Shown here piece by piece: positions 1,463-50,264 of a stretch of DNA of 51,256 nt. The stretch is from Gammaproteobacteria bacterium (GTDB lineage Bacteria > Pseudomonadota > Gammaproteobacteria > Steroidobacterales > Steroidobacteraceae). How positions within the stretch are numbered: the stretch's first letter is position 1; each line of letters opens with the position of its first letter. The stretch covers positions 1 to 51,256 of the forward strand of contig JANYJY010000058.1 in the NCBI GenBank assembly GCA_025358295.1, read 5' to 3'. A model generated the notes under the pieces. The model did no database searches. It was not told where the DNA came from and saw only the letters and a program-made list of their open reading frames with translations. The position numbers were made by a program, and so were the translations under genes.

Positions 1463-1480
1463 TGCGCAAACGTTTGCACA
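1463..1480. promoter_or_regulatory. Candidate LacI-family operator, copy 1 (E1 alpha promoter)
   Basis: TGCGCAAACGTTTGCACA: a perfect 12-base palindrome GCAAACGTTTGC (1466-1477) extended to 18 bases with one mismatch. The central CG in an even-length palindrome is typical of LacI/GalR-family operators. It lies between the receptor stop codon at 1528 and the E1 alpha start at 1428, so it can only serve the E1 genes. The same core recurs at 5180-5191 and 6077-6088. Confidence 0.75.
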
Positions 1481-1527
1481 CCATCAATGGCGAAAAACGG
1501 GGCGTCACGGCTGCCGCCCCGTTCGGA

Positions 1528-3747
1528 CTAGAAGCCAACCGTGGCGTTCACGCTAAACCACCGCGGCCGATTGACGCGCGCGATATTGTGGAACGGGTTG
1601 ACATCGGGCACGGGCCAGAAAACGGTGTTGTAGGAAGTGCTCGTCAGGTTGGTCCCGGCGACCGTGAGTTTCCAGCGCCCGTGCTTAAGCCACGCGGATG
1701 CATTCAACAGATGGTAAGCCTCTTGAAAAGCCGAGTTCTGGGGGTCCCAGTAGGACCGCCCGATGAACGAAGCCTCCGTGCGGGCGCCCACCAGGTAGCC
1801 GCCGAAATCATGCTTCCAATCGAGCGTCGTACTTGCGGTATACGCCGGGGCGAACGGCACGTTCAAGCCGTCCAGCTGCTGCGGTGTGCCCGGCGGAATA
1901 TTTCCGTTACCTGGATTCACGAAGCCATTGGTTTGGCCCCACCGCGCACGCAGCACGCCCCCGCCAATGCTCACCTTGAATCCCCCCGGCAGCGGCGCGG
2001 CAAGGTCGAACTCCGCCCCGACGTTGGTCGAGGGGCCGATGTTGGCCGTCAAATCCTGAATCGGCCCGTTCGCGAGCCGCTGGTAGAGATACAACCTGTC
2101 CTTGTAGTAGGTATAGAAAACGGCAGCATCCAACTGCACGCCGTACTCGAACAAGGCCTTGTAACCCACTTCGTACTGGGTCGCAATCTCCGGACGAAAC
2201 GGATGGATTACGAAATTCTCCTCCACCAGGTCGCCGGGCGTGAAGCCCCGCGAAATCGCGCCATAGACGTTGGCGGTCGGGCTGAACTTGTACTGCGCCG
2301 AAACGCGCGGCGAGAATTCGTGCCCGGAGAGCGATTCGGGCGCAATGGGAAGAACCGGAGTCGTATAGTCGCCGTTGGCTACGTTGTTCGTGTTCACGGC
2401 CGACAGCGAACTCGTGTAGTACTCGCCTCGCAGGCCCAGTTCGTACTGCCAGTTTCCGTGATGCAGCGTGACGTCTCCAAACACGGCGTATTCCCGCTGC
2501 ATCTTCTCGTTGCGATCATAATCCTGCGGGAGGCCGCCTGGGCCGGGCGCGATGAGCAGCGGGTTGTTCGGATCGCTGTTGTAGTTGTTGTCGACGGCCA
2601 ACGCCGCACTCTTGTGCCCCTGAAAGAACGCACCGACGAGCCAGTCCACGTTCGAACCCCCGGTCGATGCAAGCCGCAGTTCCTCGCTATAGACCCGGTT
2701 GTCCACATTTTGTTGCAACAAGTCGATTGGGACGGGTTGCTTGAAGAAATCCGTCACTCCGCGATTGTAGGACGTGAAATAGGAAGTCAACGAAGTCAGC
2801 GCGAGATTCCCCTCCATCTGATGATCCAACTGGAGTGCGACGGAGCCGATGTGCCGGACAAAGGACGGGACGAAGAAATCCTCCACCGTGCGTGAATAAG
2901 TATGCGCGTCCGGTGGTTCGTACATGAGGTTCTGCGAACTCGTACTGAAGTCGTCCGCGGAGAGCCATAAGCGGATCTTGTTGGAGTCGTTCGGCGCGGC
3001 CACCAGGGTGACGCGGGCGCCACGGTCGGTGGCCGCGCCATAGTCGAATTTGTTGACGGTGTCGTAGACATTACCGTCGTGATGGTCGTAGTACACGCTG
3101 GCTCGTACCCCTACCGTGTCGCTAATCGGACCGGAGAAGACGGCCTGATAATTGCGCGTGGCATAGGACCCGAATTCCACCGTCGCCTCATTCTCCCATG
3201 TGCTGGTGGGTTCCTTGGTCACGTACTTGATGGCCCCGCCGACATTCGCGCCGCCAAATAGCGTTCCCACCGGTCCCTTCAGTACTTCGATGCGTTCTAT
3301 GTCGATCGGCCTCGCGATCTGTCCTTCAAAAACCTGCACGTCGTTGACGTAAAAGCCCACACCCGCGACGAGGCCGAAGCTGCCGACGCCGCGCAGCACC
3401 ACATCCGGTGTGTTGTCGTGCGCCTCGTCGATATTGAGATTCGCCACCAGCGCGCTCAGGTCGTCAAGCTGAGTGATGTGCGCGTCCTCGATAGTCGCGG
3501 CCGAAATGGCCGTGATAGAGGCCGGGATATCCCGGAGATTTTCGGAACGTTTTCGTGCCGTGACCACAATCTCGCTAAGACCGGTATCCGTCGAAGCGGC
3601 GGACTCCGCCGCCTTCTGGTCGGCTGCCAGGGAGACGGATGCATTGAAAGCGCCGCTCAGTCCCAGCACCAGGGTGGCCAGACCGATTCGCCTCCAAATT
3701 CCGCGAGTAGCCCCCGACAGGGCGGCTGCACGTACAAATTCACTCAT
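1528..3747 (-). CDS. TonB-dependent outer-membrane receptor
   Basis: This 739-residue protein has an N-terminal signal region, a TonB-box-like 'EIVVTARKR' at about residue 60, a plug domain ('RDIPASITAIS', 'VLRGVGSFG', 'IERIEVLKGPVGTLFGGANVGGAIKYVTK') and a long beta-barrel ending in an aromatic residue ('WFSVNATVGF'). Length and order fit the large receptors of oligotrophic proteobacteria that import diverse organics as well as siderophores. The start ATG follows a purine-rich GGGGGGAA. It lies 57 bases downstream of the M24 gene on the same strand and may be read with it; that gene's promoter carries the shared palindrome. The ligand cannot be told from sequence. Confidence 0.93.
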   Translation of the reverse strand: MSEFVRAAALSGATRGIWRRIGLATLVLGLSGAFNASVSLAADQKAAESAASTDTGLSEIVVTARKRSENLRDIPASITAISAATIEDAHITQLDDLSALVANLNIDEAHDNTPDVVLRGVGSFGLVAGVGFYVNDVQVFEGQIARPIDIERIEVLKGPVGTLFGGANVGGAIKYVTKEPTSTWENEATVEFGSYATRNYQAVFSGPISDTVGVRASVYYDHHDGNVYDTVNKFDYGAATDRGARVTLVAAPNDSNKIRLWLSADDFSTSSQNLMYEPPDAHTYSRTVEDFFVPSFVRHIGSVALQLDHQMEGNLALTSLTSYFTSYNRGVTDFFKQPVPIDLLQQNVDNRVYSEELRLASTGGSNVDWLVGAFFQGHKSAALAVDNNYNSDPNNPLLIAPGPGGLPQDYDRNEKMQREYAVFGDVTLHHGNWQYELGLRGEYYTSSLSAVNTNNVANGDYTTPVLPIAPESLSGHEFSPRVSAQYKFSPTANVYGAISRGFTPGDLVEENFVIHPFRPEIATQYEVGYKALFEYGVQLDAAVFYTYYKDRLYLYQRLANGPIQDLTANIGPSTNVGAEFDLAAPLPGGFKVSIGGGVLRARWGQTNGFVNPGNGNIPPGTPQQLDGLNVPFAPAYTASTTLDWKHDFGGYLVGARTEASFIGRSYWDPQNSAFQEAYHLLNASAWLKHGRWKLTVAGTNLTSTSYNTVFWPVPDVNPFHNIARVNRPRWFSVNATVGF

Positions 3748-3804
3748 AATAATTCCCCCCCTAATCGTCGTTTTTTTACTACGTGTAGCGGCCGGCGCAG
3801 GCGC

Positions 3805-5151
3805 TCAATACCTGTTCGCGATCGGCAGTTCCTGGGCCGGGAACAATGTGATGACTTCACAGCCCTTATTGGTCACAACCAACTCTTCCTCAATGCGCGC
3901 GGCGGACCGTCCATCGGAGGCCGGGCAGTAGGTCTCTAGCGCAAATACCATGCCCTCCTTGATCTCGAGTGGGTGTTCGAGAGAGACCAGACGCGAGATA
4001 ATCGGCCGCTCATGGAGCGCAACACCCAAACCATGACCAAACTGCAGCGCAAAGGCCTCCATTTCGTTGGGAAAGCCGAATTCCTGGGCACGCGGAAACA
4101 CGGCTGCAATTTCGTCTGTCCCGACGCCGGGCCGCACCCTGGCGATCCCCGCGTCCATCCACTCGCGCGCCTTGGTGTAGGCATCCTTTTGCGCATCGCT
4201 CGCCTTGCCCACGGCGAAGGTGCGGTAGTAGCAGGTGCGATAGCCCATATAGGCGTGGATGATGTCGAAGAAAGCCTGATCACCCGGACGGATCAGGCGA
4301 TCAGTGAAATTATGCGGGTGCGGGCTGCAGCGTTCACCGGCCACCGCGTTGACCGCCTCGACGTCGTCGGAACCCATTTCGAACAACCGCTTGGTTGCCA
4401 TCGCGACGATGTCCGACTCGCGCACGCCCGGCTTGAGGGCTTCATAGATGTCTTGATACACGCCGTCGACCATGGCGGCAGCGGTATTCAACAACATGAT
4501 TTCGTCGCGGCTCTTGATCTCCCGCGCATCCAGCATCACTTGCTGGCCGTCCACAATCTTCAAGCCCAATTTTTGCAGCGCGAACAGCATGGGCGGTTCG
4601 ATCACATCGATGCCCAAGGGCATGTCGGCGACGCCCTGCTGCTGTAGGACATCATAGATTTCCTGTGCCGCACGCTTGACCAATCCCTGATCGGGCGGAA
4701 TCGTCCCGCGCAGGCCCACATTGCCGGCGTGGCAGCAAATCGGCTGCAACCACGGCGCATAGATTCGATGATGGGCGGCCGCCGAGCCGAAATCCCACAA
4801 GTGCGGCTCGCCGTTTCCGCTCAGCACGGCGAAGCGGCAGAATTTGTCCCGTGACCATTCGCCGATCGCGGTCGAGGTGATGTAACGGATATTATTGTTG
4901 TCGAAACATAACAATGCGCCGAGGGTCGAATTGCGTACCGCCTGCCGGGCGCGCCCCAGGCGATAGCGGTGCAGACGCCGGAAGTCGATGCGCTCTTCGA
5001 AATCGACATTCATGACCCCATGAGCATTGAGGCGCGACCAATCGTGATGGGGATCGATATCGTCCGGCAGGATTTCGAGGCGTTCGGACACCGCCGCTTT
5101 CGTCGGCTTACCGCGCTTCGCCTTGCGATTTTTTTGTTGCTGCTCGCTCAT
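3805..5151 (-). CDS. M24-fold (Xaa-Pro peptidase-like) protein with altered metal site
   Basis: This 448-residue protein has the creatinase-type N-terminal domain followed by the pita-bread M24 domain. The ATG at 5151 is chosen because GGAGCGG precedes it and the highly charged 'MSEQQQKNRKAKRGKP' begins there; the frame upstream lies inside the divergent GST. Metal and catalytic positions seen are D296, H373 ('FGHGLGVALHERP'), E406 ('FALET') and E421/E422 ('RIEEELVV'). The second aspartate, expected 11 residues after D296 in the 'GYxSDxTRT' motif, is Cys307 ('GYRTCYYRTF'). A standard dinuclear aminopeptidase is therefore doubtful; M24 homologues with other chemistries (creatinase, DddP lyase) are alternatives. 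There is no signal peptide. It is divergent from the GST, with the shared operator between them. Confidence 0.85.
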   Translation of the reverse strand: MSEQQQKNRKAKRGKPTKAAVSERLEILPDDIDPHHDWSRLNAHGVMNVDFEERIDFRRLHRYRLGRARQAVRNSTLGALLCFDNNNIRYITSTAIGEWSRDKFCRFAVLSGNGEPHLWDFGSAAAHHRIYAPWLQPICCHAGNVGLRGTIPPDQGLVKRAAQEIYDVLQQQGVADMPLGIDVIEPPMLFALQKLGLKIVDGQQVMLDAREIKSRDEIMLLNTAAAMVDGVYQDIYEALKPGVRESDIVAMATKRLFEMGSDDVEAVNAVAGERCSPHPHNFTDRLIRPGDQAFFDIIHAYMGYRTCYYRTFAVGKASDAQKDAYTKAREWMDAGIARVRPGVGTDEIAAVFPRAQEFGFPNEMEAFALQFGHGLGVALHERPIISRLVSLEHPLEIKEGMVFALETYCPASDGRSAARIEEELVVTNKGCEVITLFPAQELPIANRY

Positions 5152-5176
5152 GATCCGCTCCGATCTCCAGCCCCTA

Positions 5177-5194
5177 TGCGCAAACGTTTGCACG
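5177..5194. promoter_or_regulatory. Candidate LacI-family operator, copy 2 (M24/GST divergent promoter)
   Basis: TGCGCAAACGTTTGCACG, identical to the E1 alpha copy in 17 of 18 bases. It lies in the 108-base gap between the divergent M24 gene (start 5151) and GST gene (start 5260), so one bound dimer could control both. Confidence 0.75.
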
Positions 5195-5259
5195 GAGTAC
5201 AATACGCTCGTTTTAGAAAAAGGCAATACCGCGATTCGTCGGCCGCAAAGGAATCTTTG

Positions 5260-6045
5260 ATGTCGGAACTTATTCTGTACAACGTACCGCAGTCCACGTG
5301 TAGCCAGAGGGTTCGGTTCGTCCTGCACGAGAAGGGTCTTGCGTTTTCCGAGCGCAAGCTCGATCTGTTTTCGGGCGATCAGCTGCGCCCGGAATATCTG
5401 CTGATCAATCCTAACGGCGTGGTTCCGACCCTCGTGCACGGCGGCCCAGCCATCGTCGACTCGGCGGTCATCATCGAATATCTCGATGAAGTATTTCCAC
5501 TCCCCACGGCTCTGGTGCCGCGCGACGCGGTCAGGCGGGCAGCGATGCGGTCCTTCATTCGCTACACCGACGAGGTGCCGACACCCGCTGTGCGCATTCC
5601 CTCCTACAATATTGCGTTTTTGCCGCACTATTGTGATATGTCGGAAGCCGAGTTCGTCGCCCTGGCCGAATCGAAACCCCTGCGTAAGGAATTCCTCCTG
5701 GCCATGGGGCGGACCGGCTTTTCCGAGCAAGAGATGTCAAAGGCATTGGCACGGCTGCGCCAGTCCATGGTGAGAATGGCCGACACGCTGCGCAGCAGCG
5801 GCGGACCCTGGCTGATGGGCTCGGACTTCACCTTGGCCGACATTGCGATCATGCCCGTCATCGTACGTATGGACGATTTGGGCCTCGGCACGCTCTGGGA
5901 GCATCTGGACGAAATCCGTGGTTGGCTCGATGCAATTCGAATGCGTCCCGCGTTCTCCAAGACCTACTATTTTGGGTCGCTGTTGACGGAGAAATATCCC
6001 AACCTCAAGAACAGCCTGATTCATCGGGATTTCGCCGCTAATTGA
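5260..6045 (+). CDS. Glutathione S-transferase family protein
   Basis: This 261-residue GST has a thioredoxin-fold N-terminal domain ('LILYNVPQSTCSQRVRFVLHE', then 'NPNGVVPTLVHGG' and 'DSAVIIEYLDEVF', the glutathione-binding loop and cis-Pro region) and an all-helical C-terminal domain containing 'FTLADIAIMPVIVRMDDLG', the usual N-capping motif. Ser/Cys residues in 'STCSQ' are the candidate thiol-activating residues. It is cytoplasmic. The ATG is preceded by AAAGGAA; the reading frame is open further upstream, but that stretch contains the operator and the M24 start. Its place under the shared palindrome suggests conjugation or ether cleavage of the same inducing compound rather than general detoxification; that is inference. 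Confidence 0.88.
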   Translation: MSELILYNVPQSTCSQRVRFVLHEKGLAFSERKLDLFSGDQLRPEYLLINPNGVVPTLVHGGPAIVDSAVIIEYLDEVFPLPTALVPRDAVRRAAMRSFIRYTDEVPTPAVRIPSYNIAFLPHYCDMSEAEFVALAESKPLRKEFLLAMGRTGFSEQEMSKALARLRQSMVRMADTLRSSGGPWLMGSDFTLADIAIMPVIVRMDDLGLGTLWEHLDEIRGWLDAIRMRPAFSKTYYFGSLLTEKYPNLKNSLIHRDFAAN

Positions 6046-6073
6046 AGATTGCGCTGATCTGCGCTTAAGTTGC

Positions 6074-6091
6074 GGTGCAAACGTTTGCTCG
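6074..6091. promoter_or_regulatory. Candidate LacI-family operator, copy 3 (hydroxylase operon promoter)
   Basis: The perfect core GCAAACGTTTGC at 6077-6088 lies in the 60-base gap between the GST stop and the binding-protein ATG at 6106. The core matches copies 1 and 2; the outer bases differ. Its placement supports the ATG at 6106 over a TTG at 6070, which would put the operator inside the coding sequence. Confidence 0.72.
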
Positions 6092-6105: not shown

Positions 6106-7143
6106 ATGACAATCTCCGCAATTAGAGCCGCCCGCCCTTCCGAAATCGTAGGGGGGCTGCAAATAGGCCGGCGGGCGTTGCTCGCCGGTGCCTTACTGGC
6201 GATGTCATCGCTGCTGCATGCACAGGCGCCGCTGCGGGTCATGAGCTTCCCCGGCGGTGCGAACCTGCCCCTCTGGGTAGCCGAGGCGAAGGGATTGTTT
6301 GCCCGAGAGCGGCTCGCCGTGTCGCTCAGCTCGACTCCCAACTCCGTCGTATTGTTCCAAAGCCTCGACCGGAGCGAACAAAACATCGCCTTCGCGGCGT
6401 TCGACAATGTAGTCGCTTATCAAGAAGGTCAGGGCGAGATCACGCTGTCGACCAAACGCGACTACTTTGCGTTCATGGGCATCACGCGAGGAACGCTTCG
6501 ATTGGATGTCGGTCCCGGCATCCAGGAATACGCGGACTTGCGCGGCAAGACGCTGGCCGTCGACTCGGTTTCAACCGGCTATTCGTTGGTCCTGCGCGAG
6601 CTTCTGCAACGGGGTGGGCTAGAGGAAGCGGATTATCACTTGGTGTCTGTCGGCGCCACGAAGATGCGTGCGCAGGCATTGATGGAGGACAAGGTTTCCG
6701 GAACGATCTTGACCACACCGCTCGAGATCGCGCCGGAGTTCCGGGGATATCGGCGTCTCGCCAACGCCGTCGACGTACTCGGACATTATCAAACCATCGT
6801 CGGCATCTCCCGGCATGGATGGGCGAGGGCTCACCGCGACGACCTCGTCGGCTTCATCCGCGCGACGAGCGAGGCGGTCGATTGGCTGCTCGATCCGCAG
6901 AACCACATTGAGGCAACGGCGATTTATCGGCGTCACCTGCCGAATTCGCCTGAGGAAGACGCGGCGCGCGAGGTCGATGCGCTGCTCGATGCGCGTGAGG
7001 GTTTTTCGCGCGGCGGTGCATTTGATCCGCAGGGGATCATGACGGTGCTGCGGATTCGGTCGCACTGGGGAACCCCGCGCAAATCATTGACCGATCCGGC
7101 GCGATACGTCGACGAGCGCTACCGTGCTGCGGCGCAACGCTGA
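6106..7143 (+). CDS. Exported NMT1/THI5-like substrate-binding protein (orphan)
   Basis: This 345-residue protein resembles periplasmic binding proteins of the NMT1/SsuA type. An N-terminal twin-arginine-containing signal ('GRRALLAGALLAMSSLLHAQA') leads to 'LRVMSFPGGANLPLWVAEAKGLFARE', the typical first lobe. 'LRGKTLAVDSVSTGYSLVLRELL' and 'QALMEDKVSGTILTTPLEI' follow in the family order. These proteins usually deliver nitrogen- or sulfur-containing aromatics or thiamine precursors to an ABC importer, but no permease or ATPase gene is present here. It sits 6 bases before the iron-sulfur subunit gene of the molybdenum hydroxylase as first gene of a six-gene operon, so it may bind the enzyme's substrate in the periplasm or supply it to a distant transporter. 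Confidence 0.82.
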   Translation: MTISAIRAARPSEIVGGLQIGRRALLAGALLAMSSLLHAQAPLRVMSFPGGANLPLWVAEAKGLFARERLAVSLSSTPNSVVLFQSLDRSEQNIAFAAFDNVVAYQEGQGEITLSTKRDYFAFMGITRGTLRLDVGPGIQEYADLRGKTLAVDSVSTGYSLVLRELLQRGGLEEADYHLVSVGATKMRAQALMEDKVSGTILTTPLEIAPEFRGYRRLANAVDVLGHYQTIVGISRHGWARAHRDDLVGFIRATSEAVDWLLDPQNHIEATAIYRRHLPNSPEEDAAREVDALLDAREGFSRGGAFDPQGIMTVLRIRSHWGTPRKSLTDPARYVDERYRAAAQR

Positions 7144-7149
7144 CCCTTG

Positions 7150-7650
7150 ATGAAAGCACGCCTGTCCACCCTCAATGTCAATGGAGCCGACCATCGGGTT
7201 ACGGCGGATCCTTCGACCCCTCTACTCTACGTGCTGCGCAATGACTTGCGGCTGAACGGCGCCAAGTACGGATGCGGCCTCGGTCAGTGCGGCAGCTGCA
7301 CGGTGCAGGTAGACGGCGCGGCGGTCTTCTCGTGTCTGATCCCGGTTGCCGCTGTGCAAGGTCGGCGCGTGCGCACGGTGGAGGGTCTCGGCACGGCGGC
7401 GAAGCCGGGCATTCTGCAACAGGCATTCGCAATCGAGCAAGCCGCGCAATGCGGCTATTGCACGGCCGGCATGATCATGCGTGCGCAAGCCCTCCTCGAC
7501 CAAACACCCGCGCCGACCGACGCCATGATCCGCGCCCAGATGCAGCCCAACCTATGCCGCTGCGGAACCCAGTTGCGAGTCTTGCGAGCGGTCCATCGTG
7601 CCGTCGAGATGCTGCGCCGCCAATCGGCCCACGCGCACTCCGGCCCTTGA
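7150..7650 (+). CDS. 2Fe-2S subunit of molybdenum hydroxylase (IorA-like)
   Basis: This 166-residue small subunit of the xanthine oxidase family carries two [2Fe-2S] clusters. The ferredoxin-like one uses C42, C47, C50 and C62 ('YGCGLGQCGSC...FSC'). The helical one uses C101, C104, C136 and C138 ('QCGYCTAGM...LCRCG'). This size without an attached FAD domain is the isoquinoline 1-oxidoreductase or aldehyde oxidoreductase arrangement, in which electrons leave through the clusters to a cytochrome rather than through FAD to NAD. It has no signal peptide and would travel folded with the Tat-signal-bearing large subunit. The ATG at 7150 is chosen over the adjacent TTG at 7147. Its stop overlaps the next start (TGATG). 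Confidence 0.93.
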   Translation: MKARLSTLNVNGADHRVTADPSTPLLYVLRNDLRLNGAKYGCGLGQCGSCTVQVDGAAVFSCLIPVAAVQGRRVRTVEGLGTAAKPGILQQAFAIEQAAQCGYCTAGMIMRAQALLDQTPAPTDAMIRAQMQPNLCRCGTQLRVLRAVHRAVEMLRRQSAHAHSGP

Positions 7651-9884
7651 TGCGGTACGACGCCCCACTGTCGTTGACCCGACGCTCCGTTCTGACGGCC
7701 GGCGCGCTCACCGTGGCCTTCGCATTCGTTTCGCGCGCGTTCGGACAGCCCACAGCCCTCGCGGAGAGTCAATCGTCGCTCAAGAATACACCCTGGCTGG
7801 ACGCATGGATCCGCGTGGACGGCGACGGCCATATCACCGTATTCACCGGCAAGGCCGAACTCGGCCAAGGGATCCGCACCGCACTGACTCAAGTGGCCGC
7901 CGAGGAACTGGATGTTTCTCCCTCCGGCATTGAACTCATCACCGCCGACACCTGGCGCACACCGGATGAGGGTCTGACCGCCGGCAGCCACTCGATGCAA
8001 GACAGCGGCACCGCCATTCGAAATGCCGCCGCGAACGTACGGATGCGTTTGACGGAAGCTGCGGCCGCGGCCTGGGGGACGAGCGCCGCTGCGATTGCGA
8101 CCACCGGTGACGGGCATCTTGGCCATCGGGACGGTCGACGCGTGAGCTATGGCGAACTCGCGCGGACGCTCTCGCTGCACGTCGCAGCATTGGCCGATGT
8201 GCCGCTGCGCGATCCCGCACAATTTCGAACGGTGGGAACGCCCCTGCCGCGCCTCGACATCCCGGCAAAACTGACCGGCGAAAGCGCCTTTTTGAGTGAC
8301 CTGCGTCCGCCGGGGATGCTCCACGCGCGCGTCGTGCGCGGGCCGAGTGAAGGGACACGGTTGCAATCACCGGACGTCGCCGCCGTCAGGGCGCGCCCCG
8401 GGGTGGTCAACGTGATCCAGGCCGGCTCCTTCATCGCCGTCGTGGCGGAGCACGAATGGACCGCGATCACAGCCATGCGCGACCTTGAGCGAACTCCCGC
8501 CGTTCGGTCCGCCCCGGTCACTCTCAGCGACGATCTGTTCGCCGGCCTGCAGCGCCTTCCGGCCCAGGAGATCCCGGTCCTGGATACCCATGGCGAGGCG
8601 GCGATCGCGGTGCGCGCGGTGACCGCGCGTTATACACGCCCCTGGTTGAGCCACGGCTCCATCGGACCGTCCTGCGCCCTGGCGCACTTCGACGGCACTG
8701 TGATGACCCTCTGGACGCATAGCCAAGGCATTTTTAATGTGCGCCGCTTCGTCGCCGAACTCTTGAGTCTCGCGCCGCAGAACGTCCACGTCATCCATGC
8801 CGAAGGTGCCGGCTGCTACGGCCAGAACGGCGCCGACGATGTCGCCGCCGACGCCGCCTTCATTGCCAAGGCAATGCCGGGCCGGCCGATCCGTCTGCAG
8901 TGGATGCGTGAGCAGGAATTCGGCTGGGAGCCCTTGGGACCCGCCATGGCGACCGAACTCGAAGCCGCGCTGGATGCGAATCAGCGCATCGTGTCATGGC
9001 GACACGAAATTTGGAGCAATCGCCACAACAATCGACCGCAGAGCGCCGGTGCCGTTTGGATCGGCGGTGAGCTAGAGCCGGCATTTCGGCCGCAGCAAGG
9101 CGCACCCATCCCGATGCCGGAAGGCGACGGCCACCGGAATTCGAACCCGCTCTATACACTGCCGAATATGCACGTCGTCTACCACTACCTTCCGGACATG
9201 CCGCTGCGCGTTTCCGCACTACGATCGCTCGGAGCACACGTCAACGTATTCTCCATCGAATGCATGATGGATGAACTCGCCAAAGCCGGTGAGGTGGATC
9301 CGCTTGCGTTGCGTCTTGCCCATATGCAGGACGAGCGCGCAGTCGCGGTGATGCAGAAGGCAGCTGAGCGCTTCGGCTGGTCGACGCGACTGCCCGGCGA
9401 CGGACGCCGCGGCTGCGGCATGGGCTTTGCGCGCTACAAGAATATCGGCGCCTACTGCGCGATCGTGATGGAGATCGACCTCGAGCGCACGACGGGACGG
9501 ATCGCCATGCGCCGGATCGTTGCGGCCGTGGATGTGGGACTTGCGGTCAATCCCGACGGCGTTCGCAACCAAATCGAAGGCGGGATCATCCAATCGCTGA
9601 GTTGGACGAGCGGCGAGGCCGTGACCTTCGACCACAATGGCCGTACCAGTCTCAACTGGGGTTCCTACCCGATACTGCGCTTCGCCGACGTCCCTGATTC
9701 GATCGACGTGTTCATCGTAGACCGCCCCCACATGCCGTTTCTCGGCGTGGCAGAGGCCGCGCAAGGCCCAACCGCCGCGGCGCTCGGAAATGCCCTCGCC
9801 GACGCGGGCATACGCCTGCGCGACATGCCCTTCTCTCCCCAACGCGTCAAGGCCGCCCTCAGCGCAAACAGGACCCCGATATGA
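7650..9884 (+). CDS. Molybdopterin subunit of molybdenum hydroxylase (IorB-like)
   Basis: This 744-residue large subunit binds the molybdenum-cytosine-dinucleotide cofactor and hydroxylates a heterocycle or aldehyde using water. 'LTRRSVLTAGALTVAFAF' at the N-terminus is a twin-arginine signal, as in other IorB proteins. Family landmarks in order are 'FTGKAELGQGIRTALTQVAAEEL', 'SHGSIGPSCALAHF', 'AEGAGCYGQNGADDVAADAA', 'RSLGAHVNVFSIECMMDEL' and the active-site glutamate E702 in 'LGVAEAAQGPTAAALGNAL'. The glutamate that activates the Mo-bound water is thus kept. The length is normal for the family. The next gene overlaps by 4 bases (ATGA). No XdhC/CoxI-type chaperone gene is nearby. The substrate is unknown; an aromatic N-heterocycle is a reasonable guess. 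Confidence 0.92.
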   Translation: MRYDAPLSLTRRSVLTAGALTVAFAFVSRAFGQPTALAESQSSLKNTPWLDAWIRVDGDGHITVFTGKAELGQGIRTALTQVAAEELDVSPSGIELITADTWRTPDEGLTAGSHSMQDSGTAIRNAAANVRMRLTEAAAAAWGTSAAAIATTGDGHLGHRDGRRVSYGELARTLSLHVAALADVPLRDPAQFRTVGTPLPRLDIPAKLTGESAFLSDLRPPGMLHARVVRGPSEGTRLQSPDVAAVRARPGVVNVIQAGSFIAVVAEHEWTAITAMRDLERTPAVRSAPVTLSDDLFAGLQRLPAQEIPVLDTHGEAAIAVRAVTARYTRPWLSHGSIGPSCALAHFDGTVMTLWTHSQGIFNVRRFVAELLSLAPQNVHVIHAEGAGCYGQNGADDVAADAAFIAKAMPGRPIRLQWMREQEFGWEPLGPAMATELEAALDANQRIVSWRHEIWSNRHNNRPQSAGAVWIGGELEPAFRPQQGAPIPMPEGDGHRNSNPLYTLPNMHVVYHYLPDMPLRVSALRSLGAHVNVFSIECMMDELAKAGEVDPLALRLAHMQDERAVAVMQKAAERFGWSTRLPGDGRRGCGMGFARYKNIGAYCAIVMEIDLERTTGRIAMRRIVAAVDVGLAVNPDGVRNQIEGGIIQSLSWTSGEAVTFDHNGRTSLNWGSYPILRFADVPDSIDVFIVDRPHMPFLGVAEAAQGPTAAALGNALADAGIRLRDMPFSPQRVKAALSANRTPI

Positions 9885-11494
9885 CTCCTCCCACGCGACG
9901 CGATTTCTTGAGATCGGCGGCGCTCATGCCGGCGGCGGTGGCGGCGTTTGCCCGTGCAGCGAGCACCGATCGATTTGACTACGTGCTCGCCGGAGCGGGT
10001 CACAACAGCCTCATCTGTGCCGCATACCTGGCAAAGGCCGGTCAGCGCGTGCTGCTGTTGGAGGGACGGGCGATGATCGGCGGCGGCTGCAAAACCGCGG
10101 AAATTCTGCTGCCGGGATTCAAGGAGGATCTGTGTTCGAGCGCGCACAGTGTCATCGCCCGCACGCCCATCCTGCGCGACAACGAGCTCGGTCTCGATCA
10201 CTACGGTTACGAACTGCTGTATCCGGACGTGGTCCTGCACTATCCGTTCCTTGACGGCGCATCCCTCACCGCATTTCACAATGACATCGAGCGCACCGCG
10301 GCAACGATTGCACGCGTCTCGAAGACGGATGCCGAAACTTTCCGGCGTCTGGCGCCCGAGCGGCAACGCATCAAAGCGATGGCCCCCGGCGATGCCGCGA
10401 AGACCCGCAGCGGGCTTTACTTTCAGAGGCTGGCCGCGCTGACCGGATATGCCGCGGCCAATCAGGTCTGGGAAAGCCGCTACATGCGTGCAGCCAGTCT
10501 CTCGGGCGGACGATTCTTCGGCACGCCGGGCAGCGACGTCGGCTCGGGCGCACAGGCGTTTTCGATGATGGACCACATGGCGGGCCGGCCGATTCCGCGG
10601 GGTGGTTCGGGCATGTTGACGGTCGCTCTGGGACGACTGATCGAAGACCATAACGGCGTCATCCTGACCGGCAAACCCGTTACCCGGCTGCTCATCGAAG
10701 GCGGCCGATGCAACGGCGTGGAATGCCTCGATGGGAGTCAGTTCCGGGCAGAGAAAGGCGTAGTTTCCACGATCCACATCAAGCACCTGATCGATATGGC
10801 GCCCCGCGAACTCTGGGGCGATGCGCTGCTGGATGGCGTCGAACTGATGCAACCGGAACTCGCCATGTTCCAGTTTCACTACGCCCTGAGTGAAGCACCC
10901 CGCTATCCACTCGCCCCGAGCGGCTCGGTGTCCAGCTGCGAGGCGTCGATCATGCAGAATCCCGACAGCATCTTTGTGCTCAACTCCGACGATGCCCGCG
11001 GGGAATTGCACCTCGAGGACTGCGCCCTCCAGGTCGTCCACCCCGCCGTATTCGATGCCAGCCGAGTCCCACCCGGACAAGGACTGTTGAAGATCGAGGG
11101 CGTGGCGCCGTACCACCTCAAGGAAGGACCCGAGCACTGGGACGCAATCAAAGAGCAGGTCGCCGACACCATCGTCACGCATTACTTCAAGCACACCTCG
11201 AATCTATCCAAGGGAAAGATCCTCGCCCAATTTCTGTTGAGTCCGCTCGACATTGAACGGATGAATCCTGCGATGTGGCGCGGCAGCGTGCACCATTTCG
11301 ACAACCGCTGGGGTAACTTCGCGCCCTATCGGATGCCGATTGCCGGGCTCTATCAAACCGGAGCGTGTACCGCGCCGGGAGGCTCGATTTCCGGCATGCC
11401 GGGCCGCAATGCGGCCGCGGTAATATTGCAAGACGACGGCAAGACGCTGCAACAGGCGATCGGTGCCGAGAGCGCCAAGTCAGGTGGCCTGTGA
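9881..11494 (+). CDS. Tat-exported FAD-dependent oxidoreductase (phytoene-desaturase-like)
   Basis: This 537-residue protein belongs to the COG1233 phytoene dehydrogenase/amine oxidase-like flavoproteins. The N-terminal 'TRRDFLRSAALMPAAVAAFARA' is a near-perfect Tat signal. The FAD-binding Rossmann motif follows at about residue 37 ('VLAGAGHNSLICAAYLAKAG', then 'VLLLEGR' and 'GGGCKTAE'). The C-terminal 'GLYQTGACTAPGGSISGMPGRNAAAVI' is the second FAD-contact motif typical of the group. It overlaps the neighbouring genes by 4 bases on each side, so its amount is tied to the hydroxylase. It probably desaturates or oxidises the same substrate or its hydroxylated product in the periplasm. Carotenoid chemistry is unlikely, since no other carotenoid gene is present. 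Confidence 0.85.
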   Translation: MTPPTRRDFLRSAALMPAAVAAFARAASTDRFDYVLAGAGHNSLICAAYLAKAGQRVLLLEGRAMIGGGCKTAEILLPGFKEDLCSSAHSVIARTPILRDNELGLDHYGYELLYPDVVLHYPFLDGASLTAFHNDIERTAATIARVSKTDAETFRRLAPERQRIKAMAPGDAAKTRSGLYFQRLAALTGYAAANQVWESRYMRAASLSGGRFFGTPGSDVGSGAQAFSMMDHMAGRPIPRGGSGMLTVALGRLIEDHNGVILTGKPVTRLLIEGGRCNGVECLDGSQFRAEKGVVSTIHIKHLIDMAPRELWGDALLDGVELMQPELAMFQFHYALSEAPRYPLAPSGSVSSCEASIMQNPDSIFVLNSDDARGELHLEDCALQVVHPAVFDASRVPPGQGLLKIEGVAPYHLKEGPEHWDAIKEQVADTIVTHYFKHTSNLSKGKILAQFLLSPLDIERMNPAMWRGSVHHFDNRWGNFAPYRMPIAGLYQTGACTAPGGSISGMPGRNAAAVILQDDGKTLQQAIGAESAKSGGL

Positions 11495-12072
11495 TCACCG
11501 TAACCCCCCGCCATTGGCCCATCGGTGTCGCAGTGCTGGCACTGCTCTTCACGGCCTCCGTGCGCGGCGAACACTCCTCGCCTGCCACGCTGGCCGTGCC
11601 CGTCAATTCCGCACCGCATCGGGCCCCGGAACAGCCGTTGCCGTTCAGCCACCGGGAACACGTCGCCGCCCTGCATCTGGATTGCAGCACCTGCCACACC
11701 AACCCCGAACCCGGTAGACAAATGACTTTTCCCGCGACCTCAGTCTGCATGGGTTGTCATGCATCGATCGCAACCGACAAACCGGCCATCCAGAAACTCA
11801 CAACGTACGCAAATTCCGGTGAGCCGATCCCGTGGGTCCGTGTTTACACGGTTCTACCCGGCGTCACCTGGACGCATCGCAAACACGTGCAAGCCGGGGT
11901 GAAGTGCGAATCGTGTCATGGATCTGTCGGGGAACTGGCCTCCATGCAAGAGTTGTCGGCGGTGACATCGATGGCGAGTTGCATCGGGTGCCATCAAAAG
12001 CGGCATGTCAGCGCCGCATGCGTCACCTGCCATGCATGGCCTAAGGCGAGCCTCGACGTGCCGGCCCGGTAG
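11491..12072 (+). CDS. Periplasmic pentaheme cytochrome c
   Basis: This 193-residue protein has a signal peptide and five CxxCH heme sites, at C65-H69, C86-H90, C139-H143, C164-H168 and C177-H181. 'FSHREH' and 'WTHRKH' before the first and third sites look like distal histidine ligands of cytochrome c3/c7-type folds. The start is a GTG overlapping the previous stop as GTGA; the open frame further upstream lies inside the flavoprotein gene. The position directly after a molybdenum hydroxylase and a flavoprotein, both Tat-exported and both lacking an NAD-linked partner, makes it the likely electron acceptor for one or both, passing electrons towards the respiratory chain. That role is inferred from context. 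Confidence 0.88.
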   Translation: MITVTPRHWPIGVAVLALLFTASVRGEHSSPATLAVPVNSAPHRAPEQPLPFSHREHVAALHLDCSTCHTNPEPGRQMTFPATSVCMGCHASIATDKPAIQKLTTYANSGEPIPWVRVYTVLPGVTWTHRKHVQAGVKCESCHGSVGELASMQELSAVTSMASCIGCHQKRHVSAACVTCHAWPKASLDVPAR

Positions 12073-12090: not shown

Positions 12091-12903
12091 ATGTCACTGA
12101 CAATCTCATTAAGTTTGTTTTTAGCGGCAGGTCTCGTCGGCGGACTCCTTCTCGGTCTCATCGGGGTTGGGATGGCGCTGATCGCGGTTCCGCTGCTCAC
12201 CATGACCCTGCCGCTCTTCGGCATCGGACCCGACGCCGCGCCGCTGACTGCGCTCGCCACGTCGATGGCGATCGTATCCGTCGGTTCGATCTCCTCGATT
12301 GTCACGCATCACCGCCTGGGTAACGTCGATTGGCAATTGGTGAAGACCACGGTACCGGCCAGCCTGACCGGGGTCGCGCTCGGCAGCGTGGCTGCGACCC
12401 ATCTAACCGGCGATACCCTGCGCTCGATCTTCTGTGGTTTTCTGCTCGTCATCGCCGCCCGAATGCTGTTGCCGGAAAAAAAACGTGCCGATAAAGCGAT
12501 TACAACCGGCGCTTGGACCTATCGTCTCGTTGGCGCGCTCATTGGCGTCGCGGGCAGCCTCATCGGTGCGGGAGGCGGCGTCTTCATGGTGCCCTTCCTC
12601 GCCAGTCGCGGCCACACCATGGTCCGCGCCGTTGCCACCTCAACCACGATCGGGCTGCCCGTTTCGGTCTTCGGCGCAATCGTCTACAGCTGTCAGCCGG
12701 CCCCGGTCCCAGGCAGCACGATGCTGGGCTACGTGTTTCTGCCGGCATTCTTCGGACTCAGCGTCGGCAGCTTACTCGCGGCACCATTCGGTGCGAAGCT
12801 TGCCTCTCGAGTCCCGGCTCGAGTGCTCCGGCGGGGGTTCGCGATCCTTCTTCTCATCCTGGCGATCAAGATGCTGGTAGCCTTCAATCCGCTGACGAGA
12901 TGA
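12091..12903 (+). CDS. TauE/SafE-family membrane transporter
   Basis: This 270-residue membrane protein has about eight hydrophobic segments and the duplicated TauE/SafE pattern: 'GLLLGLIGVGMALIAVPLL' in the first half and 'GVAGSLIGAGGGVFMVPFLASRG' in the second. Family members export sulfite, sulfoacetate or other organic anions, but most are uncharacterised. It starts 18 bases after the cytochrome gene and closes the six-gene operon, so export of a product or an associated anion is plausible. Its 3' end overlaps the convergent exported-protein gene by 20 bases. Confidence 0.87.
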   Translation: MSLTISLSLFLAAGLVGGLLLGLIGVGMALIAVPLLTMTLPLFGIGPDAAPLTALATSMAIVSVGSISSIVTHHRLGNVDWQLVKTTVPASLTGVALGSVAATHLTGDTLRSIFCGFLLVIAARMLLPEKKRADKAITTGAWTYRLVGALIGVAGSLIGAGGGVFMVPFLASRGHTMVRAVATSTTIGLPVSVFGAIVYSCQPAPVPGSTMLGYVFLPAFFGLSVGSLLAAPFGAKLASRVPARVLRRGFAILLLILAIKMLVAFNPLTR

Positions 12904-17795: not shown

Positions 17796-18743
17796 TCAGG
17801 GGTCGGTCGAATCACCGGCCGCAATTTCCGGCAAATCAATGACGGCGCCGGACGCCTGCAGATACGTGGTCAGGGCGTTGAGCATGCGCAGCGGCGCCGG
17901 CGGCAGGCGTCTGCCCAGACGGCTGATGAGCTGAACCGCGGCGTCTTGGAAGGTCGTGCTGTCGATGGGCACCGCGGCGAAGTGTCCGCTCTCCACCTCC
18001 TTGCTGACCGCGAGCGCCGGCAAGAGGGTGAAGAACTCCCCTGAACTCAGCAGGCTCTTCATCAGAGTGATGGAATTGGACGTCAAGCTCGGCTGCAGGG
18101 ATACGCGTTCGCTTGATTCGGCTGCCTGCAATAACTGCCGGGTCCTGAATGAGGATTCGGGCAGGCATAGACGATACGGCTTAAGGTCGGCAAGCTTGAG
18201 AAGCTTGTGTGCCGCCAGCGGGTGATCGATCCTCATAATGGCGCAAAGCGGCTGGCGCACCGAGGCCAGCACCCGAATCCGCGGATCGTCCGAGGACTGG
18301 AACACCAAGCCCAGATGAGCATCGTCCTCGGCGACCAGCCGGACAACCTCGTTGGAGGATGCTGACATATGGACATTGACGAACAGCCCGGGATACCTGG
18401 CGTTGAAGCGAATCAGCAAATTCGATAAGGGCTCACCGATGAATCCTTCGCCGATCGCCAGCAGAATGCGCCCGGTGCGCAGCCCCTTGATGTCGGAGAG
18501 CTTGGCATCGAAGGATTCATTCAGCCGCAGCTGCTCCGTGTAATGCTCGACCAGCAGCATCCCGGTCTCCGTCAGCTTGATGGTGCGGCGTCCATGCTCG
18601 ATCAGGCCGACACCGATCTCGGCCTCCAATTGGGAGATTTGCCGGCTTACGGAGGAGACCGCCACGCCGAGATTGTCGGCGGCAGCCCGCATCGAGCCCA
18701 GCTTGGCAGCCTCGTAGAGATAGCGAAGATTCAGCTCCTGCAC
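17796..18743 (-). CDS. LysR-family transcriptional regulator
   Basis: This 315-residue LysR protein has an N-terminal winged helix ('LRYLYEAAKLGSMRAAADNLGVAVSSVSRQISQLEAEIGVGLIEH') and a periplasmic-binding-fold effector domain from about residue 90. It is the first gene of the minus-strand series TIGR04076 - AKR - amidohydrolase - PrnB-like and is separated from it by 75 bases. LysR genes are usually divergent from their target, so this codirectional order is less common; it may control itself and the set downstream. A perfect 7-base inverted repeat lies just ahead of its start (18757-18780) and is a candidate self-operator. Confidence 0.9.
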   Translation of the reverse strand: MQELNLRYLYEAAKLGSMRAAADNLGVAVSSVSRQISQLEAEIGVGLIEHGRRTIKLTETGMLLVEHYTEQLRLNESFDAKLSDIKGLRTGRILLAIGEGFIGEPLSNLLIRFNARYPGLFVNVHMSASSNEVVRLVAEDDAHLGLVFQSSDDPRIRVLASVRQPLCAIMRIDHPLAAHKLLKLADLKPYRLCLPESSFRTRQLLQAAESSERVSLQPSLTSNSITLMKSLLSSGEFFTLLPALAVSKEVESGHFAAVPIDSTTFQDAAVQLISRLGRRLPPAPLRMLNALTTYLQASGAVIDLPEIAAGDSTDP

Positions 18744-26849: not shown

Positions 26850-27509
26850 TCACCGCATAGGCGCAGACATGACCCGCACCAGGTCGTCGTGCGTGGACTC
26901 GATGTGCGCGTGAACCAGGGTGCGAGTTTCCTTTGATTTGCCCGCGGTCCAGGCTTTCAACAGCAATGCGTGTTCGCGCGCCGCGCGCTTGACCCGGCCC
27001 TCCGGGCGCAGATGGGCCTGCACGTAGCGCTGCGCGAGGGTGTGCAACCGGCTCAAAATCTCGGCCGCCACGGGCTGCCGGCGCGGCACCACGAGCAGAA
27101 GATGGAACTCGCGATTCAGCCGGCCGGAAGCTGAGAACTCTTCGTTGCCGAGGGCATCATTCAGTTGCTCGAGCGCCTTGCGCGCGGCGGCGTGATCCGC
27201 CGCAGTCGCAAGTTTCGCGGCTTGCACGACGGCGGCGGGTTCAATCCGCAGACGCAGATTGAAAACCTCATCCAGCTCGCCGATGGTCAGCGGACGCACC
27301 TGGAAGCCTCGATGGGGAAAAATGTTGACCAGTCCCTCGGCCTGCAGCTGCACCAGCGCCTCGCGCACCGGGATCTTGCTGGTGCCGAATTCGGACGCCA
27401 ATGTATCTTGTCGCAGCGCCGAGCCGGGTGCATAGGTGCCTGACAGGATGCGGTCGCGAAAACGCACCAGGAGCTGGCTGGTCACCGATTGCACCAGCGG
27501 TTCGCTCAC
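26850..27509 (-). CDS. GntR-family (FCD) transcriptional regulator
   Basis: This 219-residue regulator has a winged-helix domain ('GSALRQDTLASEFGTSKIPVREALVQLQAEGLVNIFPHRGFQV') and an all-helical FCD effector domain ('LRLRIEPAAVVQAAKL', 'NREFHLLLV', 'EHALLLKAW'). The GTG start overlaps the epimerase stop as GTGA. FCD regulators usually sense the pathway substrate or an intermediate, here probably hydroxyproline or its product. A GTATAC-centred palindrome between the divergent catabolic genes (29383-29394) is the likely operator. Confidence 0.9.
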   Translation of the reverse strand: MSEPLVQSVTSQLLVRFRDRILSGTYAPGSALRQDTLASEFGTSKIPVREALVQLQAEGLVNIFPHRGFQVRPLTIGELDEVFNLRLRIEPAAVVQAAKLATAADHAAARKALEQLNDALGNEEFSASGRLNREFHLLLVVPRRQPVAAEILSRLHTLAQRYVQAHLRPEGRVKRAAREHALLLKAWTAGKSKETRTLVHAHIESTHDDLVRVMSAPMR

Positions 27510-28438
27510 GCGCGGATGCCCCAACAGAAAGGATCCTCAGGGTCGCAATGCAGCACCGACTCCCCGGTCACGTACGCCGTGCCCGTGATCGAGGGCGCGA
27601 TCTGCCCCTTGTCGCGATCGAGCCAGCGGTAGCGGCCTTCGAAGGTGCTGCCGATCAAGCTCTCTTGGACCCACACATCGCCTTCAAGGAGTTTGCCGTC
27701 CGCGGCGAGACAGGCGAGCTTTGCGCTCGTGCCCGTGCCGCAGGGCGAGCGGTCGTAGGCCTTACCGGGACACAGGACGAAATTCCGGCTGTCGGCGCCG
27801 CGCAATGTCGAGGCAGAGAACAGCTCGATATGATCGACTTGCGGATGGCCTTGGGCATTGATGGCAGCGCGCACTCGCCAGGAGAAGTCGGTCAGGGCCT
27901 CGACATGGGGCAAATCGATGACCTGATTGTGCTCGGAGATCAAAAAAAACCAATTCCCTCCCCAGGCGACATCGCCGGTCACCGCGCCGATGCCGGGAAC
28001 CTCCACCGCCAGCCGCCGCACTGAACGGTAGCTCATCACATTGGCCACGCTGATCCGCCCATCGGGATGCAGCTGCGCCTCGATGGGTCCCACGGGCGTA
28101 TCGATCTTCACCGTTCCGGGCACCAAGCTGCCGGCATGCTTGAGCGAAGCGATCAAGCCGATCGTGCCGTGCCCGCACATGCCCAGATAATCCACATTGT
28201 TGAAGAAGATGACGCCCAGATCGCAGTCGGCGCGATCCGGTTTGACCAGCATGGCGCCAACCAGGGGATCGGAGCCGCGCGGTTCATTGACGATGGCCGA
28301 ACGATAGGCATCGAAGCGCTCGCGAAAGCGCTGCACGCGGCCCGCCAGCGGCCCGTCGCCTAAATCCGGGCCGCCCTCGAGCACGAGGCGCGTGGGCTCG
28401 CCGCCAGTATGCGAATCGATGACGCGGATGCGTTGCAT
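27506..28438 (-). CDS. 4-hydroxyproline 2-epimerase (proline racemase family)
   Basis: This 310-residue proline-racemase-fold enzyme has both catalytic cysteines: C88 in 'MCGHGTIG' and C233 in 'SPCGTGTSA'. Two cysteines give a racemase/epimerase; a Ser or Thr in the first position would give the dehydratase. Context favours conversion of trans-4-hydroxy-L-proline to cis-4-hydroxy-D-proline over proline racemisation: it overlaps a DHDPS-like gene by one base (TGATG) and a GntR regulator by four, and is divergent from a D-amino-acid dehydrogenase. This is the first step of the bacterial hydroxyproline pathway in the cytoplasm. Confidence 0.9.
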   Translation of the reverse strand: MQRIRVIDSHTGGEPTRLVLEGGPDLGDGPLAGRVQRFRERFDAYRSAIVNEPRGSDPLVGAMLVKPDRADCDLGVIFFNNVDYLGMCGHGTIGLIASLKHAGSLVPGTVKIDTPVGPIEAQLHPDGRISVANVMSYRSVRRLAVEVPGIGAVTGDVAWGGNWFFLISEHNQVIDLPHVEALTDFSWRVRAAINAQGHPQVDHIELFSASTLRGADSRNFVLCPGKAYDRSPCGTGTSAKLACLAADGKLLEGDVWVQESLIGSTFEGRYRWLDRDKGQIAPSITGTAYVTGESVLHCDPEDPFCWGIRA

Positions 28439-43072: not shown

Positions 43073-44152
43073 TTATCCAGCGGGCGTCGTAGAGCGTGCT
43101 TCCGGGCGTTGAGTTGCGCCATCACTGTGTTCGAGATCGATGAGCCGCGCGAGCACTCGTCGAAAGTGCGCGAGTGGTGCATCCGCCAGAATCCCGAGCA
43201 TCTGAAAGCTCGGATCCTCATCCAACGTCTGTTGCTGGCGTTCGATGATCTCTTTGTCTTCCATGAAGCCTTCGATGAGACTCTCGAGTAGCGTCCGGGA
43301 TACGGTCGAGTCCTCACCCTCAAAATTATTGAGATATGACCAGAAGAAATGCGTCGTCCGCTCCGTCTCCGGCGTCATGAACTGGCAGTTTCGGTATTCC
43401 TTGGCGCCCCCTCGGCTTGCCGCCTCCTTACCCTGCCCTGCTGCCGCGAATAATGTCTCCATATTGAAAATACCGGGCACCGTCATGGTCGCGATGTTGC
43501 GGCGGTCGAGCTTGGCGGCCTTGTCGGGGATGACCTTTCTGTGGAAAGGCGGCGGATCGCTGTTCAAATGCCAACGCTCGACACGAAACCCGCGCTCGAG
43601 GCGCTCGATGACAGTGGGCTTGGAGACGTAGGCATATTCCTCCGAGCCACCGAGCGTCTGGGTATGTACGAAGGCGAGGTGCGAGAAGTCGCTCAGGTTA
43701 TCGACAATCAGCAGGTAATTGGCTTTGTAGTGAAGGTAGGCCGGAATGCCTTTCCAACTCGGGTCACGCAAATAAGGAAGATCCAGGATCAAGGCAGGGT
43801 CCGCTTTCGCGGCATCGCCCAGCCAAACCCAGAGGAAGTGACCGCGCTCCACGATGGGATAACTTCTGACCCGAAGCTTGGGCGGAATCATGTCCTGACC
43901 GGGAATCTGCACGCACTTGCCCGAGCCGTCGTATTTGATGCCGTGATACATGCAGCGCACGCCGTCACCCTCGAGGCGGCCTTTGGAGAGCAAGGCGCCG
44001 CGATGCGGGCAGCGATCGTTCAGCGCACTGACACTGCCGCTCTCGCCCCGGTAGATGAGCAGGTGTTCTCCCAGCACTGTGCGGCCCAGCAATCGGCCGT
44101 GCGCCAACTCCTGATCCAGCGCCGCAACGTACCAACAGTTCTTGAGAAACAT
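43073..44152 (-). CDS. Rieske non-heme iron oxygenase, VanA-like
   Basis: This 359-residue oxygenase component has a Rieske [2Fe-2S] motif at C48-H50 and C67-H70 ('DRCPHRG...RCMYHGIKYDG') and a mononuclear iron site with H158 and H163 after Asp155 ('DNLSDFSHLAFVHT'). This layout is typical of vanillate and dicamba O-demethylases, which act on methoxy- or other substituted aromatics in the cytoplasm. The partner reductase is not next to it. It is divergent from an IclR gene; a perfect TATAAT on the minus strand (44212-44217) followed by a TTTCG-N5-CGAAA palindrome in its leader indicates repression. Confidence 0.9.
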   Translation of the reverse strand: MFLKNCWYVAALDQELAHGRLLGRTVLGEHLLIYRGESGSVSALNDRCPHRGALLSKGRLEGDGVRCMYHGIKYDGSGKCVQIPGQDMIPPKLRVRSYPIVERGHFLWVWLGDAAKADPALILDLPYLRDPSWKGIPAYLHYKANYLLIVDNLSDFSHLAFVHTQTLGGSEEYAYVSKPTVIERLERGFRVERWHLNSDPPPFHRKVIPDKAAKLDRRNIATMTVPGIFNMETLFAAAGQGKEAASRGGAKEYRNCQFMTPETERTTHFFWSYLNNFEGEDSTVSRTLLESLIEGFMEDKEIIERQQQTLDEDPSFQMLGILADAPLAHFRRVLARLIDLEHSDGATQRPEARSTTPAG

Positions 44153-44183
44153 ACTCGCCCTCGGTGCTGTCCCATCACCATTG

Positions 44184-44198
44184 TTTCGCCTAGCGAAA
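44184..44198. promoter_or_regulatory. Candidate IclR operator
   Basis: TTTCGC-CTA-GCGAAA, a perfect 6-base inverted repeat with a 3-base spacer, between the divergent Rieske gene (start 44152) and IclR gene. It lies downstream of the minus-strand TATAAT, a position suited to blocking transcription of the Rieske gene. A third half, GTTTCG, is at 44203-44208. Confidence 0.6.
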
Positions 44199-44211
44199 TT
44201 CGGTTTCGTCT

Positions 44212-44217
44212 ATTATA
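44212..44217 (-). promoter_or_regulatory. -10 element (TATAAT) for the Rieske oxygenase gene
   Basis: Perfect TATAAT read on the minus strand, 60 bases upstream of the oxygenase ATG. No good -35 box lies at 16-18 bases; TTGCCA is 21 bases upstream, so an activator or a weak -35 must be assumed. The same bases read TATTAT on the plus strand only a few bases before the IclR start. Confidence 0.45.
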
Positions 44218-44222
44218 ACGCC

Positions 44223-50132: not shown

Positions 50133-50195
50133 AGCCAAAACCTCGAGCGGTGCGCGCTCTATCGCGGCACACTGGAAAAGTGGTTTAATTGGAAT

Positions 50196-50234
50196 CGGAG
50201 GGAACCTCCGTTTAATATACGGAGGCATCCTCCG
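50196..50234. promoter_or_regulatory. Two identical TetR-type operators
   Basis: CGGAGG-GAA-CCTCCG at 50196-50210 and CGGAGG-CAT-CCTCCG at 50220-50234: two perfect 15-base palindromes with identical arms, 24 bases centre to centre, separated by TTTAATATA, which could be a -10 region for either strand. They lie between the divergent SDR remnant and TetR gene, as expected for an autoregulated TetR repressor. Confidence 0.75.
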
Positions 50235-50264
50235 TTTGGCAAGAGCTATTTAAGGAGCAGTTCG

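Follow-up and report, generated by a model that had tools for sequence, protein, structure and literature searches.

Three copies of a CG-centred palindrome as probable operators of a local LacI-family regulon with unusual gene content in a Steroidobacteraceae genome

In the main-text portions of the compilation by Ravcheev et al. 2014, the sites of 1173 of 1303 LacI regulators are centred on CG, and 176 of 182 pathway-assigned groups control carbohydrate metabolism (PMC4052901). In the text portions drawn on here, Camas et al. 2010 link repressor residues 15/16 with operator positions NT-5/NT-4, Arg20 with NT-6, and NT-2 with residues 55, 15 and 5 (PMC2978694). Here we describe a putative regulon of this kind in a 51,256-nucleotide stretch (hereafter the window) of a Gammaproteobacteria bacterium of the family Steroidobacteraceae. 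The window is the entire contig JANYJY010000058.1 (C24) of a 4.02 Mb assembly (GCA_025358295.1), and a 12-letter palindrome, GCAAACGTTTGC, stands in it before three sets of metabolic genes. As in the local LacI regulons described in the compilation's main text, the palindrome is even and CG-centred, the sites precede start codons, few operons are involved and the regulator lies near its targets (here, in relatives). In contrast to the mostly carbohydrate groups, the targets are an M24-fold protein, a 2-oxo acid dehydrogenase, a GST and a molybdenum hydroxylase (PMC4052901).

Exact search of the window returned GCAAACGTTTGC three times, each copy in a gap before a gene, in agreement with the initial annotation of this DNA, which had proposed three identical 12-mers in start regions. 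Copy 1 (1466-1477) lies in the 99-bp gap between the end of a TonB-dependent receptor gene (1528) and the ATG of an E1alpha gene (1428), 37 bp before that ATG. Copy 2 (5180-5191) occupies the divergent M24/GST gap, 28 bp before the M24 ATG (5151) and 68 bp before the GST ATG (5260). Copy 3 (6077-6088) is found between the GST stop (6045) and the ATG of a periplasmic binding protein gene (SBP, 6106), 17 bp before the latter. The sites sit upstream of linked metabolic gene starts, at distances of 17-68 bp from the ATGs chosen; for GST and SBP the start is our own choice, where the open reading frame (ORF) list has longer upstream starts. Extended, copies 1 and 2 read TGCGCAAACGTTTGCAC, and copy 3, in reverse orientation, GAGCAAACGTTTGCAC.

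Markov models of order 1-3 fitted on the window predict 0.003-0.005 exact copies in the window, 0.0003-0.0005 in the 4.6 kb that hold the sites and 0.24-0.43 in the genome. These three are the only exact copies in the whole genome (G000; 4,023,380 bases, 74 contigs), with 0 for the reversed control; the 12-mer is not common genome-wide, a point that the earlier proposal had left to be checked. One mismatch added 9 places in the genome versus 6 for the reversed control. Eight of the nine fall within a chosen ORF and the other (L158) 8 bases ahead of a 105-aa ORF; judged by eye, none adjoins genes of this set. Two mismatches gave one extra match in the window, at 20354. GCAAACGTTTGC is also the sole repeated perfect 12-bp palindrome there (19 occurrences, 17 distinct). 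With its even symmetry and central CG it fits the LacI-family operator pattern. Its core is what we take to be the PurR-type core of E. coli PurR/RbsR-type operators, and the string turns up in the searched portions of the literature, including one PurR-titled and one purine-nucleotide paper. This likeness is at the level of the operator string, whereas the target genes differ from those of E. coli PurR/RbsR.

Conservation was examined at the M24 loci of the best 80 of 433 relatives (L068-L147; with flanks of at most 10 kb, as far as the contig reached), with LacI-family genes detected by LacI profile and a site counted as near M24 when the GCAnnCGnnTGC form lay within -250 to +60 relative to the estimated M24 start. 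A LacI-family gene was present inside the fetched stretch at 25 loci and the site near M24 at 27. The site was seen at 21 of the 25 LacI-bearing loci versus 6 of the 55 where no LacI was found (Fisher p 2.4e-10, relatedness uncorrected); in five of these six a contig end limits the stretch to 12.9 kb at most. The LacI loci lacking a site near M24 are four (L072, L089, L119 and L120), and sites were found before a TonB gene in L072, near the LacI gene in L089 and 25 bases before the M24 ORF in L119. Across the 25 LacI loci, 59 of 73 strict sites fall outside deep coding sequence, although such coding sequence takes up 87% of the bases and leaves 13% outside. The site is kept before M24 in both Alpha- and Gammaproteobacteria (by record title), so that conservation upstream of orthologues, raised as a check in the initial annotation, was indeed found. 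In a comparison near M24 of the 64 outer triplets that this form allows, GCA led (27), followed by ATT (14) and the next at 4. The ATT palindrome, ATTnnCGnnAAT, was rejected as a candidate, its 14 loci holding one identical sequence of near-identical genomes. These uncultured Alphaproteobacteria (L109, L111, L116 and 11 more) carry an identical ATTACCGTTAAT 195 bp upstream of where M24 is estimated to start, and no LacI gene was found in them.

The plainest parallels come from Alpha proteobacterium Q-1 (L068) and Iodidimonas muriae (L069), whose M24 proteins are 86% identical to that of the window. Both carry the exact 12-mer at three starts: a deiodinase/redoxin-like gene (a GST-like gene comes next), the M24-E1alpha-E1beta-ALDH-E2 set, and a TonB receptor gene. 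In L068, GST and M24 are separated by a malic-enzyme gene. At both loci a LacI gene with helix VHLSTVSR follows E2, and then come HIBADH and TauE genes (plus an MFS gene in L069); other loci have the site before HIBADH, TRAP transporter, MFS and TonB genes. In a genome of a different genus (G107), the exact 12-mer occupies the same M24/GST gap, with FAD oxidoreductase, cytochrome and SBP genes beyond GST (L046). Deiodinase/redoxin-like genes (PF00837) at the same operator were noted at L068 5408-6184 and L069 8274-9053 (Iodidimonas-type), and also at L168 4503-5318, a LacI locus of a second lineage.

Twenty-seven LacI proteins from M24 loci form one clade (support 100/99). This was seen in a 35-row tree that excluded matches with E above 1e-60 or under 230 residues in length (L089, a partial L012 copy and second weak matches) and took 5 of the 12 G107 matches. 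As the palindromes are rare, conserved before orthologues and linked to a single LacI clade, we consider it very probable that all three are bound as operators by one LacI-family repressor, which would share an orthologue group with the regulators near M24-E1alpha-E1beta-ALDH-E2 in relatives; the earlier proposal of LacI-style operators of a local regulon is supported. Further support comes from G at position 6, which agrees with Arg20 of TVSR regulators. In this the system resembles the TVSR code in the text portions of Camas et al.: the relatives' LacIs have a TVSR helix, G stands at NT-6 with Arg20, and the centre is CG (PMC2978694).

We infer binding, repression mode and inducer as follows. 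In the absence of inducer, a repressor dimer would occupy GCAAACGTTTGC in each promoter region and block transcription of M24 with the TonB receptor gene, of E1alpha-E1beta and probably the rest of that operon, of GST, and of the SBP/molybdenum hydroxylase/FAD oxidoreductase/cytochrome operon. A substrate or intermediate of the catabolic pathway would release the repressor. Read in this way, the locus is a known kind of system, a local LacI-family regulon, with unusual gene content and targets that are not sugar-like in look.

Several observations weigh against this assignment. No LacI gene was found by search in the window, as the initial annotation had stated, and the fully visible upstream side of the window M24 gene has none. 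That side matters in the window's own family, where LacI lies upstream of M24 in four of five LacI-bearing loci (L047, L072, L050 and L051) and downstream in L073. A genome search with the Peristeroidobacter regulator returned only three LacI-family genes, on contigs C46, C64 and C17, at 29-31% identity and none of them of the M24-linked clade. In G107 the best-scoring LacI match to the same regulator is just 32% identical, and the contig there ends inside the TonB gene. The tree tool warned of meeting long branches, including the organism's own C46 protein with the M24-linked set. The M24 loci are related, so that p-values overstate independence, and at 49 of the 80 neither site nor LacI gene was found; the M24 gene set therefore also exists outside this control. 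The 12-mer itself is found in 14 of 59 relatives, with one or two copies in each, and among 14 such places viewed (4 further copies besides) only L012 lies in a LacI/HIBADH neighbourhood, the others looking unrelated. Scanning the three sites for promoters gave no sigma-70-like match; TTG-type and weak -10-like hexamers flanking each site were seen by eye and given no weight.

Where, then, would a regulator of the M24-linked group be encoded? Among the 25 LacI loci, 22 have that gene 3' of M24 (it is upstream in L072, L089 and L099), which in the window is the side of the contig edge. The E1beta gene is cut by that edge. Its product is 85% identical to the L049 E1beta over residues 1-124, and the remainder was found in no other contig of the genome (best match elsewhere 52%); part of the operon is therefore missing from the assembly. 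The regulator gene more probably than otherwise lies beyond the left contig end (position 1); alternatively, it could sit in another unassembled part of the genome or be one of the three LacIs already known.

Action in trans of the C46, C64 or C17 LacI on the window sites is the rival that survives best, yet we judge it unlikely. These three are the LacI-family genes found in the assembled genome, and C46 is the best candidate among them: its helix, VSASTVSR, has the pair Ala15-Ser16 as in L097, whose sites are TGCAAACGTTTGCA (the pair recurs in L099 and L140), and its orthologue in G107, which also carries the exact site, is 81% identical. On the other hand, each of the three is near a different CG-centred palindrome, namely TGAAACCGGTTGCA (twice) for C46, TGTCAGCGCTGTCA for C64 and TGGTAGCGCTATCA for C17, all picked by a palindrome scan in which chance matches are possible. 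C46 moreover adjoins, by eye, an MFS transporter gene of sugar-porter look and a glycosidase-like gene, and C46, C64 and C17 all fall outside the M24-linked clade (for C46, with the long-branch warning). The palindromes next to the organism's own LacI genes are at L163 4702 and 4835, L165 9680 and L166 5493, and like sites exist in G107 at the C46 orthologue and at the C64 relative L167.

It is very improbable that a window-encoded regulator from some other family binds the palindromes. GntR (26850-27524), IclR (44142-45071) and TetR (49797-50852) domains and, by eye, a LysR-like ORF (17796-18743) are available, but the first three lie at least 20 kb and the last about 12 kb from the nearest site. 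Furthermore, even symmetry about a CG centre, together with G at position 6, marks LacI operators in the consulted portions of both surveys (PMC4052901, PMC2978694), and LacI genes are linked to the same site in relatives (linkage was examined for the LacI family). A chance or non-regulatory repeat, as the mostly unrelated places of the 12-mer in relatives could suggest, is the least credible explanation of all, given that the 4.6 kb hold 3 exact copies where about 0.0004 would be expected, each of them in a gap before a gene, and that the site before M24 is kept in two proteobacterial classes.

Returning to a repressor of the M24-linked group, its members differ in a way that can be related to the operator. 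C at operator position 3 (TGCACACG) occurs in at least one site at all 8 loci with helix HHS (His15; L072, L073, L047, L112, L115, L119, L124 and L139) versus 1 of 19 others, the counterexample being L140 with Ala15 and one C-bearing site; this sample is small, related and filtered. The residue table covers 27 loci, with L144 and L145 (helices ending TASR) left out, and its sites were filtered on outer bases and arm letters (exact L069 copies, for example, were dropped) and counted anywhere in the locus. HHS occurs in two separate tree groups, and 9 of 32 half-site letters in HHS loci are A. The pairing departs from the main links in the text portions of Camas et al., residues 15/16 with NT-5/NT-4, in that His15 here goes with C at NT-3 (PMC2978694). 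Since the window sites have A at position 3 on both sides, the regulator of this organism is predicted from sequence to be without His15. More broadly, we lean slightly towards the view that a LacI orthologue group of Alpha- and Gammaproteobacteria, with two metagenome-assembled genomes labelled Deltaproteobacteria/Myxococcota, has under its control a catabolic pathway not devoted to sugars (M24 hydrolase, 2-oxo acid dehydrogenase, HIBADH-type reductase, molybdenum hydroxylase, GST, deiodinase-like redoxin), and that its specificity shifted between TGCAAACG and TGCACACG with His15.

The genes to the left of copy 2 are on the reverse strand. They encode the E1beta subunit (2-373; Transket_pyr, E 3e-26), the E1alpha subunit of a 2-oxo acid dehydrogenase (361-1428; PF00676, E 1.8e-72), the TonB-dependent receptor (1528-3747; PF00593/PF07715) and the M24-fold protein (3808-5151; PF00557, E 8.1e-36). 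The receptor gene is downstream of M24, and as the two are 57 bp apart on one strand, read-through from M24 to TonB is a reasonable idea. The M24 protein is distantly DddP/DoeA/prolidase-like; its identification as DddP was rejected, with 103.5 bits to the NF043017 equivalog against a cut-off of 600. A search of 217 genomes of the family, including this one, gave an M24 match at E 1e-60 in 24 and at least 67% identity in 8 (own genome included). Few family members have M24, and the G107 protein (L046 8910-10253) is 95% identical to the window's; the high identity and patchy presence suggest horizontal transfer of the gene between genera.

On the forward strand follow the GST-family protein (5260-6045; PF13417 and others), the NMT1-type SBP (6106-7143; PF09084, E 1.5e-14), the [2Fe-2S] subunit of the molybdenum hydroxylase (7150-7650; PF01799/PF00111) and its molybdopterin-binding subunit (7614-9884, start approximate; PF20256/PF02738). 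A CrtO/amine oxidase-like FAD oxidoreductase (9881-11494; PF01593, NF045689 score far under cut-off), a multihaem cytochrome c7/c3-like protein (11440-12072, start approximate; PF14522) and a TauE/SafE-type transporter (12091-12903; PF01925, E 1e-51) complete the set. The window [2Fe-2S] and molybdopterin-binding subunits match 7 and 8 of 86 related stretches, every one LacI-bearing, and the other proteins match as follows (GST 10, of which 7 LacI-bearing; SBP 6, 2; FAD oxidoreductase 4, 2; cytochrome 5, 3), the counts including one locus twice (L046 and L074 are the same contig). The window TauE had no match at E 1e-15 in the 86. This refines the six-gene oxidation operon of the earlier proposal: the hydroxylase subunits, GST, FAD oxidoreductase and cytochrome recur in such loci, whereas the transporter is assigned by operon position only. 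Our guess from the molybdenum hydroxylase, GST and amidohydrolase genes is that the substrate is an aromatic or heterocyclic compound.

The present LacI group is not named in the main-text portions consulted of the compilation (PMC4052901), and no description of it was found in the literature searched. Searches on homarine catabolism, on M24 with TonB/E1/LacI or HIBADH/LacI/TRAP, and on Iodidimonas with LacI found nothing relevant to the pathway, and the exact 14-mer was found in unrelated work only. Joining scattered genes into one pathway under one switch gives a handle for finding the substrate. A LacI group that guards a 2-oxo acid dehydrogenase/molybdenum hydroxylase/GST pathway would widen the known inducers of the family, and the naturally occurring link between residue 15 and operator position 3 offers a testable specificity rule.

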